Positions 8,281 to 44,164 of a DNA stretch of 64,000 bases are shown here, piece by piece. The DNA comes from Salinimicrobium sediminis. Lineage in GTDB: Bacteria; Bacteroidota; Bacteroidia; Flavobacteriales; Flavobacteriaceae. Both the position numbers and the translations under genes were made by a program. The notes below the pieces were generated by a model, which worked only from the letters and a program-made list of their open reading frames with translations, did not search any database and was not told the DNA's origin. The DNA lies in NCBI RefSeq assembly GCF_900215295.1, contig NZ_OCMF01000001.1, positions 1,054,001-1,118,000 of the forward strand, given 5' to 3'. The number at the start of each line of letters is the position of its first letter. Positions within the stretch are counted from its first letter, which is position 1.

Positions 8281-8298
8281 ATTCTTTAGGACAAGAGA

Positions 8299-8333
8299 TC
8301 TCATATCTCAAGTCTCATATCTAATATCTATCT
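8299..8333. repeat. Heptad word array (gene-less)
   Basis: Five consecutive 7-nt words, each starting TCT: TCTCATA, TCTCAAG, TCTCATA, TCTAATA, TCTATCT. The last touches the stop codon of the convergent reductase gene. The layout matches the array downstream of the four-helix gene at 20319-20346, and the first 13 nt recur exactly at 24068-24080. Confidence 0.6.
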
Positions 8334-18374: not shown

Positions 18375-19955
18375 ATGGCAGAAATTAATCCGGCTGAAGT
18401 ATCAGCAATATTGAAAAAACAGCTTTCCGGGTTTGAAGCTAAGGCTTCACTTGACGAAGTAGGTACTGTACTAAACGTAGGGGATGGTATCGCCAACGTT
18501 TACGGACTTGCGAATGCACAATACGGGGAGTTGGTTGAATTCGAAGGCGGATTGGAAGGAATTGTACTTAACCTTGAGGAAGATAACGTTGGGGTGGTAC
18601 TTTTAGGTCCATACAAACAGGTTAAAGAAGGAGCAACTGTGAAAAGAACACAAAGAATTGCTTCTATTAATGTTGGAGAAGGAATTGTAGGACGTGTGGT
18701 AGACACTCTTGGAGCGCCAATCGACGGAAAAGGACCTATCCAGGGTGAGACTTTCCAGATGCCGCTTGAGCGTAAAGCTCCCGGTGTAATCTACCGTCAG
18801 CCGGTAACTGAGCCGCTTCAAACAGGTATTAAGTCCATCGATGCCATGGTGCCGATTGGCCGTGGCCAGAGGGAGCTTGTAATTGGTGACCGTCAAACAG
18901 GTAAAACTGCCGTGGTTATTGATACTATCCTTAACCAGAAAGAATTTTATGATGCAGGGGAACCTGTATATTGTATATATGTGGCGATAGGCCAAAAAGC
19001 TTCTACCGTTGCAGGTATTGCCAAGACTCTTGAAGATAAGGGAGCTCTTGCCTATACTACTATCGTAGCTGCAAACGCATCAGATCCTGCTCCAATGCAG
19101 GTTTATGCTCCTTTCGCAGGTGCTGCTATCGGTGAGTATTTCCGTGACACGGGACGTCCTGCCTTGATCGTTTATGATGATCTTTCCAAGCAGGCGGTTG
19201 CTTACCGTGAGGTATCCCTGTTACTTCGTCGTCCACCGGGACGTGAGGCATATCCTGGAGACGTTTTCTTCCTTCACTCAAGATTACTTGAGCGTGCTGC
19301 AAAAGTTATCGCAGATGATGATATCGCGAAGAACATGAACGACCTTCCGGATGTATTGAAAGATAAAGTAAAAGGTGGAGGTTCCTTAACTGCACTTCCG
19401 CTTATTGAAACTCAGGCAGGTGACGTATCTGCATATATCCCTACCAACGTAATTTCGATTACCGACGGACAGATATTTTTAACTTCAGACTTGTTCAACT
19501 CAGGGGTTCGTCCTGCGATTAACGTAGGTATTTCTGTATCACGTGTAGGTGGTGCTGCTCAGATCAAGTCGATGAAGAAGGTTGCAGGTACATTGAAACT
19601 TGACCAGGCTCAGTATCGCGAACTTGAAGCTTTCGCTAAGTTTGGATCTGACCTTGATCCTGCTACGCTTAACATCATTGAAAAAGGTAAGCGTAACGTG
19701 GAGATCCTTAAACAGGCAGAGAACAATCCTTATCCTGTGGAGAACCAGATAGCGATCATCTATGCCGGTTCCAAGAACCTGTTAAGAAATGTCCCTGTAG
19801 AGAAAGTAAGAGAGTTCGAAAAAGATTACCTGGAGTTCCTTGATGCCAAGCACAGAGATGTTCTTGATCAGCTTAAGGCAGGTAAGATCAACGATGATAT
19901 CACAGATACCCTTACACAGGTAGCTAAGGAGCTTTCAGCTAAGTATAAAAAGTAG
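18375..19955 (+). CDS. atpA: F0F1 ATP synthase subunit alpha
   Basis: A 526-residue non-catalytic nucleotide-binding F1 subunit. The P-loop GDRQTGKT is at residues 171-178, with Gln in place of the residue typical of beta. The arginine-finger region [18 protein letters not shown] and the [20 protein letters not shown] block are intact. The beta and epsilon genes do not follow; after atpA comes a four-helix-bundle gene, then atpG. Codon use (many GGT/GCT/CGT) looks like that of a highly expressed gene. Confidence 0.97.
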
Positions 19956-19968
19956 TTTTTCAAGTGCT

Positions 19969-19992
19969 GAGTTAAGAGTTATGAGTTATGAA
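19969..19992. repeat. Left heptad array / terminal inverted repeat of the four-helix insert
   Basis: Three tandem words GAGTTAA, GAGTTAT, GAGTTAT, then GAA. Its 24 nt match the reverse complement of 20320-20343 at 20 of 24 positions. The array starts 14 nt after the atpA stop and runs into the start codon of the four-helix gene (ATG at 19988). Confidence 0.8.
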
Positions 19993-20326
19993 CAAACTGG
20001 AAGATAGCCCAATTAGGATTAAAAGTTTTCAGTTTGCTTGTGACATAGTTTTCTTCACCAGGTCTTTGAAAAAACAGAATGAATATGAGCTGGCTTCCCA
20101 GCTTTTAAAAAGCGGAACGAGCATTGGAGCCAATGTAAGAGAAGCACAAAGGGGAGTAAGTACAAAAGATTTCAAGAATAAATTCGGTATTGCTTTAAAG
20201 GAAGCCGATGAAACGAAATACTGGTTGGAGCTTATTGAAGCGACATCAGAAAATGATTGTAAAGTTTTAATTGCTAAGTGTGAAGAGTTAATAAGAATTA
20301 TGGTTTCCATTATAAAAAACTCATAG
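19988..20326 (+). CDS. Four-helix-bundle protein (23S rRNA-intervening-sequence / Avd-like family) inserted in the atp operon
   Basis: A 112-residue all-helical protein. The family core is clear: YELASQLLKSGTSIGANV, then EAQRG, then FKNKFGIALKEADETKYWLE. Such proteins form small oligomeric bundles. They are known as 23S rRNA intervening-sequence proteins and as the accessory Avd of diversity-generating retroelements, but solo copies have no defined role. It lies between atpA and atpG, which are normally adjacent, in the same direction. Start and stop codons both fall inside inverted heptad arrays, as if gene and arrays form one inserted unit. A second copy lies at 43744. No reverse transcriptase is nearby. 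Confidence 0.88.
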   Translation: MNKLEDSPIRIKSFQFACDIVFFTRSLKKQNEYELASQLLKSGTSIGANVREAQRGVSTKDFKNKFGIALKEADETKYWLELIEATSENDCKVLIAKCEELIRIMVSIIKNS

Positions 20327-20346
20327 CTCATAACTCAAAACTCATA
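20319..20346. repeat. Right heptad array / terminal inverted repeat of the four-helix insert
   Basis: Four tandem words ACTCATA, GCTCATA, ACTCAAA, ACTCATA, inverted relative to 19969-19992. The four-helix stop codon TAG (20324-20326) is inside the array, and the atpG ATG follows 10 nt after it. Confidence 0.8.
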
Positions 20347-20356
20347 ACTAAAAAGA

Positions 20357-21217
20357 ATGGCCAATTTAAAAGAATTAAGAAGCAGGATCACCTCGGTTTC
20401 CTCGACTATGCAGATCACCAGTGCCATGAAAATGGTGTCGGCGGCAAAGTTGAGCAAAGCCCAGGATGCTATTACCGCGATGCGGCCTTATGCCGAGAAG
20501 CTTTCAGAATTGTTGCAATCGCTGAGTGCTACTCTTGACAGCGACCAGACCAGTAAATATTCTGAGCAAAGGGAGGTGAATAATGTACTTTTTGTATCCA
20601 TTTCCTCGAATCGTGGTCTGGCCGGAGCTTTTAACTCTAATATCGTTAAGGCTTCAAAATACATAGCCGATCGTGATTACAGCGGGAAGAATGTTGAATT
20701 TTTGACCATAGGAAAGAAAGCTAATGACATTCTTAAGAAGACTCACAAGATCTTTAAGAATGAAACTGCTATCTATGATGATCTAAGCTTTGAAAATGCC
20801 TCAGCTATCGCCGAAGAGCTAATGCAGCTGTTTGTAGAGAAGAAATTCGATAAGATCATCATCGTATACAACCAGTTTGTAAATGCCGCTACCCAGGATG
20901 TGAAAACTGAGCAATTCCTGCCGATAGTTCCTGTGGAAAAGGATGAAAATGTTGTCTTGGATTACATTTTTGAGCCATCCAAAGAAGAGATCGTACTCAA
21001 TTTGATCCCTAAATCTTTAAAGATGCAGATCTTTAAAGCTCTTAGAGATTCTTTCGCTTCAGAACACGGTGCGCGTATGACTGCGATGCATAAAGCTACC
21101 GATAATGCTACTGAATTAAGAGACTCTCTTAAATTATCATACAACAAGGCCCGTCAGGCTTCTATTACCAACGAGATCCTTGAAATTGTTGGTGGAGCTG
21201 AAGCTTTGAATAACTAA
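20357..21217 (+). CDS. atpG: F0F1 ATP synthase subunit gamma
   Basis: The 286-residue central rotor shaft. The N-terminal coiled coil starts MANLKELRSRITSVSSTMQI with the conserved ITSAMKMVSAAKLSKAQ, and the C-terminal helix ends YNKARQASITNEILEIVGGA. It is the last gene of the operon; a fragment of its 3' end is duplicated 73 bp downstream and a GNRA-loop terminator follows. Translation probably depends on read-through across the inserted four-helix gene. Confidence 0.96.
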   Translation: MANLKELRSRITSVSSTMQITSAMKMVSAAKLSKAQDAITAMRPYAEKLSELLQSLSATLDSDQTSKYSEQREVNNVLFVSISSNRGLAGAFNSNIVKASKYIADRDYSGKNVEFLTIGKKANDILKKTHKIFKNETAIYDDLSFENASAIAEELMQLFVEKKFDKIIIVYNQFVNAATQDVKTEQFLPIVPVEKDENVVLDYIFEPSKEEIVLNLIPKSLKMQIFKALRDSFASEHGARMTAMHKATDNATELRDSLKLSYNKARQASITNEILEIVGGAEALNN

Positions 21218-24001: not shown

Positions 24002-24030
24002 ACATCAAAAATTAATAATCGGTTAGAGGA

Positions 24031-24107
24031 GAATTGAGATATTCAGAAAGTTGTACATCCAATCAATTCTCATATCTCAATACTCAATACTAAAATCTCA
24101 ATACTAA
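24031..24107. repeat. Paired inverted word arrays without a gene (possible empty footprint of the four-helix element)
   Basis: The left arm ATTGAGATAT (24033-24042) is the exact reverse complement of ATATCTCAAT (24072-24081). The right side continues as 7- and 8-nt words TCTCATA, TCTCAATA, CTCAATA and TCTCAATA up to the next ATG. Only 29 nt lie between the arms. The layout equals that of the four-helix inserts minus the gene. Confidence 0.55.
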
Positions 24108-24111
24108 AAAA

Positions 24112-28526: not shown

Positions 28527-28547
28527 AGCCAAGAACCAAGAGCCAAG
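28527..28547. repeat. Heptad word array after the EnvC-like gene (gene-less)
   Basis: Three 7-nt words AGCCAAG, AACCAAG, AGCCAAG begin 10 nt after the stop codon. Same period and position type as the other arrays, but different words. Confidence 0.45.
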
Positions 28548-28587
28548 ACATTGAAATGAGCTAAAGCTTGATTGGAACAACCCTGAG

Positions 28588-43003: not shown

Positions 43004-43702
43004 ATGATCAATAAAACTGTAGAGAATGTTTCTGAAGCTCTTAAAGGAGTCCATGACGGAATGACCTTTATGCTCGGCGGCTTTGGGCTCAGCGGGATTC
43101 CTGAAAATGCCATTTCTGAACTCGTTCGTCTCAACCTGAAGAATCTTACCTGTATCTCAAATAATGCCGGAGTAGATGACTTTGGTTTAGGCCTGTTACT
43201 TCAAAAGAAACAAATAGATAAAATGATCTCCTCTTACGTTGGAGAAAATGCTGAATTTGAGCGGCAAATGCTTAGCGGGGAACTCGATGTGGAATTGACA
43301 CCTCAGGGCACTCTTGCAGCTAAATGTCAGGCGGCGCAACAGGGTTTTCCCGCAATTTATACTCCGGCAGGTTATGGAACTGAAGTAGCCGAAGGAAAAG
43401 AAACCCGCGAATTCAACGGGAAGATGTATGTGCTGGAAGAAGCTTATAAAGCCGATTTTGCCTTTGTGAAAGCCTGGAAGGGAGACAAAGCCGGAAATCT
43501 CATTTTTAAAGGTACAGCAAGAAATTTCAATCCGGTGATGTGCGGTGCAGCGACTATCACAGTAGCCGAGGTAGAGGAGCTGGTGGAACCCGGAGAACTC
43601 GACCCCAACCAAATCCACATTCCGGGAATTTTCGTTCAACGAATCTTCGAAGGAAAGAATTATGAAAAACGGATTGAACAACGAACTGTGAGGAAAAAAT
43701 AA
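43004..43702 (+). CDS. scoA: 3-oxoacid CoA-transferase subunit A
   Basis: A 232-residue subunit that with ScoB moves CoA from succinyl-CoA to acetoacetate, in ketone-body or fatty-acid use. The CoA-binding [19 protein letters not shown] is near residue 24, followed by [18 protein letters not shown] and [21 protein letters not shown] start at the ATG at 43004 because the upstream in-frame ATG precedes the promoter. The partner subunit is not adjacent as usual: a four-helix-bundle gene sits between them. Confidence 0.94.
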
Positions 43703-43735
43703 TTTGAAAATAAGGTAATTTAAAAATTTGAAAAT
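43701..43735. repeat. Left word array of the second four-helix insert
   Basis: AATTTGAAAAT at 43701-43711 and again at 43725-43735, with AATTTAAA between. These words are inverted relative to the TTTTCAAA/TTCTCAAA words at 44128-44159. The array begins on the stop codon of scoA. Confidence 0.72.
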
Positions 43736-43743
43736 CAGCCGAT

Positions 43744-44106
43744 ATGAGAGACGATAAGGAAAATATAATAGTTCGTAAGACCTTTGATTTTGCACTTGAC
43801 GCTATAGACTATTCAGAGAAATTACGATCCCTTCACAAATATGAAATGGCCTCTCAATTATTTCGCAGCGGTACCTCAATAGGTGCAAACGTCTGGGAAG
43901 CACAAAATGCAGAAAGTAATGCAGATTTTATTCATAAATTTAAAATCGCGGCAAAAGAAGGAGATGAAACCAGTTATTGGCTCCGTTTGTGTAAAGCTTC
44001 GCCACATTACCCAGATCCGGAGATGAAATATTTTTCTGATCTTAAAGACATTACACGAATTATTTCAAAGATTATTAGTTCAAGTAAAAGGAAAAAAGAG
44101 TTATGA
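43744..44106 (+). CDS. Four-helix-bundle protein (23S rRNA-intervening-sequence / Avd-like family) inserted between scoA and scoB
   Basis: A 120-residue helical protein and clear paralogue of the gene at 19988. The shared core reads YEMASQLFRSGTSIGANV, EAQ, then FKIAAKEGDETSYWLRL; outside it the two differ widely. A basic tail (SSSKRKKEL) ends the protein. It separates two genes that are normally adjacent and lies in their direction, 41 nt after scoA and 58 nt before scoB. Both gaps are filled by inverted word arrays. Function of solo family members is unknown; no retroelement is near. Confidence 0.87.
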   Translation: MRDDKENIIVRKTFDFALDAIDYSEKLRSLHKYEMASQLFRSGTSIGANVWEAQNAESNADFIHKFKIAAKEGDETSYWLRLCKASPHYPDPEMKYFSDLKDITRIISKIISSSKRKKEL

Positions 44107-44127
44107 GAAAATTAAAACATTCAGGAA

Positions 44128-44159
44128 TTCTCAAATTTTCAAATTCTCAAATTCTCAAA
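44128..44159. repeat. Right word array of the second four-helix insert
   Basis: Four tandem 8-nt words TTCTCAAA, TTTTCAAA, TTCTCAAA, TTCTCAAA, inverted relative to 43701-43735. The array ends 5 nt before the scoB ATG, so it occupies the scoB leader. Confidence 0.78.
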
Positions 44160-44164
44160 TTGAT

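Follow-up and report, generated by a model that had tools for sequence, protein, structure and literature searches.

The window analysed here is a stretch of 64,000 nucleotides of the Salinimicrobium sediminis genome. Between atpA (18375-19955, + strand) and atpG (20357-21217, + strand) of the ATP-synthase operon, both named by reading their translations, it carries an ORF of 112 amino acids on the same strand (19988-20326), which was assigned to the S23p / four-helix-bundle family by its PF05635 and TIGR02436 profile scores. The ORF is enclosed by two arms on the + strand. The 34 nt left arm (19958-19991) includes a GAGTTA(T/A) heptad array at 19968-19991, resolved by TRF as 3.4 copies of TGAGTTA. 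The right arm (20318-20354) includes an array at 20318-20349 with 4.6 copies of AACTCAT. The start codon (ATG, 19988-19990) lies within the left array and the stop codon (TAG, 20324-20326) within the right one. Compared without gaps, the arms match in inverted orientation at 20 of 22, 21 of 24 and 27 of 34 positions. An earlier note on this DNA had described the same gene, its direction, the heptamers at both ends and the enclosed start and stop codons, all of which are borne out here, and its inverted match of 20 of 24 positions is about right. Between the arms, the S23p gene is the sole sense ORF of at least 80 amino acids and there is no transposase of the unit's own; a mechanical antisense frame (20029-20331) overlaps the gene. 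The arm score of this copy is 20, and the background obtained from 231 random 320-nt 'inserts' placed in the flanks of the genus loci showed a mean of 9.0, a 99th percentile of 13 and a maximum of 15. When the whole window was scanned for a 7-nt period, requiring 14 or more of 16 matches and skipping low-complexity stretches, just two places emerged, and both are the arms of the atp copy. Chance repeats as the source of the arms were ruled out by the background scores, the window scan and the genus permutations given below.

The 112-residue protein scored 78.7 bits against PF05635 (cut-off 33.8) and 96.9 bits against TIGR02436 (cut-off 24). With scores above the curated cut-offs and a four-helix fold in the model, it belongs to the S23p / 23S_rRNA_IVP family. 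The AlphaFold2 model (pLDDT 94.2) is composed of four helices. In Foldseek comparisons, it matched the solved S23-family protein 2rld with a TM of 0.84-0.91 and Xcc0516 (2gsc) with a TM of 0.79-0.84. The retroelement protein Avd (4dwl) gave a TM of 0.65-0.72 with E of 1.2-1.6, and 8ub7 a TM of 0.75 with E above 1. The protein also matched two solved structures by sequence. Residues Q38, A48, E52, D61, F62, K65, K71, E72 and E75 were found to be invariant in an alignment of 62 sequences. Xcc0516 has been described as a homopentamer of four-helix bundles, and the function of the S23p family has been called unknown in print (PMC4990558).

The arrays are not special to the atp site; they were found to be common ends of S23p family genes. 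The S. sediminis genome possesses 10 PF05635 genes, and arrays of 7- or 8-nt units are present at most of their ends. The arm score exceeded 13, the 99th percentile of the background, in eight of these ten copies, and two were not above background. By eye, the heptads vary between copies (CTAGAGT, AATTCAG, CAGTGCT, GGTTGCG and others), yet the right array still mirrors the left. A second S23p element of the window lies at a scoA-like/scoB-like junction (43703-44164, + strand) and has an arm score of 21. Its left arm spans about 43702-43737, its ORF 43744-44106 and its 8-nt right array 44126-44161, the 8-nt arrays being mirrored.

TRF, which is laxer than the periodicity scan, listed further 7-nt arrays in the window. 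One of them is an ORF-less heptad array of the CTCAATACT type (24063-24109); a short stretch at 24029-24042 mirrors it, at an arm score of only 12. The region 24029-24109 precedes a nucleotidyltransferase-like gene, and the gap folds with a z of -3.3. Two lone heptad arrays, at 8298-8329 (ATCTCAT) and 28529-28548 (CCAAGAA), showed by eye neither a mirrored partner nor an S23p gene. Elsewhere in the genus, a locus before folD (L162, genome G002) looks by eye like what is left of a decayed S23p gene, with a short tail that resembles heptads.

Among 12 genomes of the genus, copies are present in 11, and the twelfth (G008) is 74% complete. In total, 117 copies were placed in 28 sites on the basis of flank similarity, with a maximum of 16 copies in one genome. 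These derive from 119 matches after two half-hits had been joined and G001:C25, close to the edge of a contig, had been set aside. A stop codon was found inside the match in 16 of the 117 copies. As named from translations, the sites include fadJ/fadI, iscA/sufB, ffh/folD, hisH/hisA, scoA/scoB, a gene before def, and atpA/atpG. The units lie mostly between co-directional genes and are read with them: at 27 scored sites, they were co-directional with both neighbours at 21, opposed to both at none and mixed at 6.

The heptads differ between lineages, yet both arms of an element match. The left-right arm match of 113 elements (four broken copies omitted) showed a mean of 15.9 within the element versus 9.4 across sites. 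Averaged over the 28 sites it was 14.7, and the maximum reached in 2000 permutations of right arms among sites was 11.4. For 76 of the 113, the own partner arm fitted as well as the best 5% of partners taken from other sites. Autocorrelation at lags 7, 14 and 21 was observed in both arms and was absent from the ORF and far flanks, the lag-7 values being 0.43 and 0.41 in the arms versus 0.24-0.26 in the ORF and far flanks. The arm score exceeded the 99th percentile of the background in 91 of 112 genus copies and did not in the other 21; five broken copies were omitted here and in the swap and wobble tests. In a tree of 112 ORF rows, which has few columns and some forks unresolved, the ORFs cluster mostly by site, site 0 holding several types and L070 of site 13 grouping with site 18. 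The G009 copy at site 13 has a left arm that reaches scores of 18-24 with the arms of site 18, and by eye it is nearer to those than to the other site-13 copies.

Gene and arms belong together over long times. When arms were swapped between same-site pairs with ORF identity below 60%, own arms beat swapped ones in 55 of 56 pairs, with one tie. At 60-80% identity (84 pairs), own arms were favoured in 57, disfavoured in 20 and tied in 7. Unrelated gene types at one site thus each have their own matching arms, and so gene and arms form a unit. At higher identity, the preference is gone: there were 33 pairs for own arms and 44 against at 80-90%, and 13 for and 20 against above 90%, so that own arms were favoured in 46 of the 131 pairs with at least 80% identity and disfavoured in 64. 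For groups of at least 70% identity, 2019 of 5000 permutations reached the observed value, which leaves ongoing concerted change of the arms unsupported. Fast concerted change among close relatives was likewise not supported by the swap tests at high ORF identity.

In the wider phylum, the S23p family was found in 157 of 198 sampled genomes at E 0.001, with 153 exceeding the cut-off. For the arms, 40 genomes of the phylum were sampled, each by a single high-scoring copy, which biases the sample to good copies; the arms exceeded the 99th percentile of the genus background in 34 of the 40 and the 95th percentile of cross pairs in 26. A scan with a Nostoc plasmid protein gave 397 relatives (best 80 kept) in cyanobacteria, Clostridia, Bacteroidota, Fibrobacter-like, Verrucomicrobia and other bins. 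S23p units also occur on plasmids and viral contigs. From these other collections, 87 loci were scored, comprising 78 of the best 80 of the 397, 7 plasmid loci from 25 records and 2 viral-contig loci; the partial matches L223 and L234 were excluded, and L312-L314 were inspected and left uncounted. Their arms exceeded the 99th percentile of the genus background in 74 of the 87 and, outside cyanobacteria, in 30 of 39. Against cross pairs among the same 87, just 34 exceed the 95th percentile, which is low because many Nostoc copies share AATTCGT / AATTCGC and fit one another; base composition varies between the phyla in this comparison. Nostoc arms are often perfect, for example (AATTCGT)n against (ACGAATT)n. 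In L208 and L209, the inverted repeat extends about 12 nt past the heptads (GTGCATCAAAAC type), as if the arm had been copied along with its flank. Several plasmid units are situated in defence loci, with drmD/pglX in L180, cas2/cas1 in L181, helicase/N-6 DNA methylase in L184 and csx2/cas1 in L186. S23p (23S_rRNA_IVP) genes inside cas loci have been reported (PMC3936711), and L181 and L186 are like them; the passages on them there make no mention of flanking arrays.

At the atp site itself, the ORF is present in 6 of the 12 genus genomes, intact in five and broken in one (G010). G006, which is 75% complete, has a 49-nt remnant with similar heptads at this junction, in G005, G007 and G009 the junction has no ORF and a hairpin built of a different heptad, and G002 and G008 have other hairpins. 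A joined query found the ORF adjoining atpG in at least 12 further genera among 199 genomes of the family. Among the matches listed, the other-genus copies are full-length in 8 of 12 and broken in G373, G017, G327 and G335; overall, 13 of the 18 atp-site copies listed are intact and 5 are broken. The atp copy did not arrive recently, as same-site relatives occur in half of the genus genomes and in these other genera; it is old, patchy and often lost. The earlier note had pictured a compact unit inserted into an essential operon. Its unit stands, as the arms recur with the gene, and so does the direction of reading in the operon; a young insertion is not supported, same-site relatives being spread over genus and family. 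The normal adjacency of atpA and atpG, also claimed there, was confirmed by the absence of an ORF from 27 of 28 other-genus junctions sampled from the best AtpG matches of 120 genomes. The proposed comparison with empty junctions gave no clean answer at atpA-atpG, where ORF-less relatives bear other hairpins or a remnant; two plasmid pairs, considered below, show replacement of target DNA.

The atp copy resembles the 23S rRNA IVS in its protein family and in an ORF enclosed by complementary ends. It also shares tandem heptamers by the S23p start, a feature of one published IVS, that of Coxiella, in which three GACAGAT and one GACAGAA stand just before the S23p start in a number that varies by strain, the ends form a 28-bp stem, and an RNase III site lies at the first heptamer (PMC4990558); the passages on this IVS are silent on heptamers in the 3' arm. 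Unlike the 23S rRNA IVS, the atp element is situated not within a 23S rRNA gene but between two protein genes, and the elements described here reach 16 copies per genome, with heptad arrays on both sides and lineage-specific heptads. The atp element is an IVS-like heptad-hairpin element outside rRNA, having the layout of an IVS and not its location. The four-helix fold is also a likeness to Avd of diversity-generating retroelements, at Foldseek E above 1, and the likeness of the S23p and Avd families is already in print (PMC10053308). Unlike those retroelements, which require a genomic reverse transcriptase, the element occurs in a genome (G000, S. sediminis) without an RVT_1 match. Tandem intergenic repeats of 7 nt (STRR, e.g. 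TAACTGA) are described from cyanobacteria and Bacteroidetes, with polymerase slippage as an idea for the 7-nt unit; the STRR arrays described there are direct repeats before start codons, with one inverted case, whereas the arrays here are mirrored pairs around one gene family (PMC4679880). No prior description of mirrored heptad arrays around S23p genes was found by title or abstract start in the open-licence PMC literature, and nothing useful was found there on Avd as a nucleic-acid-binding pentamer.

The atp copy and its relatives are probably heptad-hairpin S23p elements, cassettes roughly 0.4 kb long in which two mirrored heptad arrays enclose one S23p-type gene, with an upkeep and spread proposed as follows. 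The gene would be expressed by read-through of the host operon. The likeness of the arms may be maintained at the DNA level, rather than through selection on RNA pairing. Template switching is known in quasi-palindromes. Slippage of 7-nt units within an array, together with copying between arms through a foldback by such template switching, could keep the arms alike. The protein, by family a presumptive ring of helical bundles, may bind the hairpin as DNA or RNA and in this way help to maintain the element or, rarely, to spread it. On this view, the 23S rRNA IVS would be one branch of this kind of element that landed in rRNA. At atpA-atpG, the element is long established, at a junction that almost invariably has a hairpin of some sort. 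The movement of the element, the function of its protein and the upkeep of its arms are what we infer. We know of no moving machinery for S23p elements, and movement was not seen directly; these points, and the existence of ORF-less heptad hairpins, count against this reading.

The hairpin at the junction also suggests a rival explanation at the RNA level, which we consider rather unlikely. It holds that the junction needs a hairpin in the mRNA, for processing, stability or uneven expression of atpA and atpG, and that heptad arms are one way to form it; the gene in the loop would be a passenger or a regulator of the hairpin, and the stem might be cleaved by RNase III in the manner of the 23S IVS, where its site at the first heptamer of Coxiella is a point in favour (PMC4990558). 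Among 34 junctions (28 from other genera and 6 from the genus), 32 ORF-less ones were folded, the ORF-bearing L135 and the 15-nt L144 being left aside, and 30 of the 32 showed z < -2, with a median of -4.8. Same-strand gaps in the window served as control: 6 of 18 showed z < -2, with a median of -0.05, and 6 of 14 when the four gaps that are halves around the two S23p genes were removed. By eye, the junction hairpins are unrelated in sequence, some being heptad arrays and some not. The whole atp insert also folds (z -3.4), with the arms pairing and the start codon within the pairing. A hairpin is nearly always present at atpA-atpG, and no other observation speaks as strongly for a role of the site at the RNA level. 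However, the junction of L144 is too short for a hairpin, and the RNA explanation accounts neither for the 7-nt period nor for such ends on S23p genes elsewhere. In elements with an arm score above 13, G.U versus A.C mismatches numbered 152 versus 177 in the genus, 93 versus 80 in the other collections and 38 versus 57 in the phylum, and, with no clear G.U excess, selection on sense-RNA pairing as the cause of the matched arms was not supported. Some junction hairpins resemble dispersed repeats, such as gtcattcccgcgaaagcgggaatc in G002 and a similar one in L130.

It is improbable that the gene is an ordinary old operon gene of useful function with heptads as incidental intergenic repeats. This explanation draws on the presence of the gene at the same place in half of the genus genomes and in at least 12 other genera, on the known intergenic heptad repeats of Bacteroidetes and cyanobacteria (PMC4679880) and on strong purifying selection. 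The dN/dS of the five intact genus atp copies is 0.03-0.09 at dS 0.2-1.2; the protein is under purifying selection in the copies measured, and such selection at a fixed site fits a useful host gene equally. It is opposed by the mirrored arms around the S23p family in several phyla, by arms that change with the gene type at one site, by the breakage in 5 of 18 atp-site genomes among the matches listed, and by the lack of an atp-site ORF among the matches listed for most of the 199 family genomes. In addition, ORF distances track AtpG distances weakly, with a Mantel value of 0.12 (p 0.24) for one copy per genus (n=12) and of 0.24 (p 0.025) for n=16, so that vertical descent at the site, judged by AtpG distances, found weak support. 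The arms at the atp site speak for the heptad-hairpin element: they fall in two heptad classes, in which GAGTT on the left is paired with AACTC on the right, or GAATT with AATTC. In 17 genomes examined, the dominant word agreed between left and right in all 16 genomes (12 genera) with either word in the left arm; the left arm of G357 has neither, and the other word turns up as a lone copy in G084, G001, G373, G120 and G048. For the 12 other genera, own arms scored 16.1 on average versus 13.8 for swapped arms (p 0.016), although, as a point against the element, the own right arm was best or equal best for just 2 of the 12.

Spread of heptad-hairpin elements was approached through filled and empty loci. 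The unit is present in the Nostoc C052 plasmid locus L185 and absent from the homologous L267 (another plasmid of the same strain), L268, L269 and L270, which are four of the five empty-flank hits (H37-H41). At L185, a stretch of about 422 bp occupies the position of about 188 bp in the empty loci, with alignments ending at nearly identical points; the left limit is accurate only to about 10 nt because the last aligned bases are poorly conserved. The TAA end of the upstream gene falls inside the array. N. flagelliforme L187 carries a unit at the equivalent place, with 99% ORF identity to L185; outside the heptads, the two differ by eye in one matched A-T / C-G pair and an adjacent unmatched change. 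The second comparison concerns a cas2/cas1 locus: L181 and L315 carry the unit, L316 and L317 lack it. Here 586 nt at the cas1 3' end of L181 replace 61 nt (L316) or 60 nt (L317), and the S23p gene is antisense to the cas genes, an exception to the co-directional trend. A 72-nt difference in cas1 length between L181 and L316 was discarded as the replaced target: the annotated starts differ, cas1 of L315 has 1053 nt, and the alignment gives 61. The unit thus stands in place of target DNA in these two plasmid cases. A classical transposon, or a miniature element moved in trans by a transposase or reverse transcriptase, would agree with the inverted ends, the several copies per genome, the presence on plasmids and viral contigs and the 6-nt direct repeat ACAGGA at both unit ends in L181, but is very improbable, as L185 and L315 have no direct repeat of at least 5 nt at the unit ends, both kinds of site have lost target DNA, and copies occur in genomes without RVT_1 (G000, G001, G005, G007 and the 75%-complete G006) or without Y1_Tnp (G002, G009). 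These two families were the ones sought, and since copy-bearing genomes lack a match to one or the other, neither is necessary for persistence, which refutes an RT-dependent or Y1-dependent persistence; with 11 copies and no Y1_Tnp match, G009 also departs from the REP/REPIN pattern of a Y1 transposase.

In a broader form, the heptad-hairpin element may belong to a widespread undescribed class, in which an S23p/Avd-like gene and the two concertedly rewritten heptad arrays around it spread together into operon junctions, taking the place of target DNA and lacking their own transposase; the 23S IVSs would be its rRNA branch and ORF-less heptad hairpins its remains. We offer this wider view tentatively, at slightly short of even confidence. 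The findings suggest that what is known as an oddity of rRNA genes represents one branch within a far broader category of genetic elements. The mirror-matched arrays predict a candidate binding site for the S23p protein and link the 23S rRNA IVSs to orphan 'four helix bundle' genes. Reading these genes as elements would fit their occurrence inside cas, DISARM/BREX, suf, his and atp clusters, and the origin of IVSs becomes testable in culturable flavobacteria or Nostoc.
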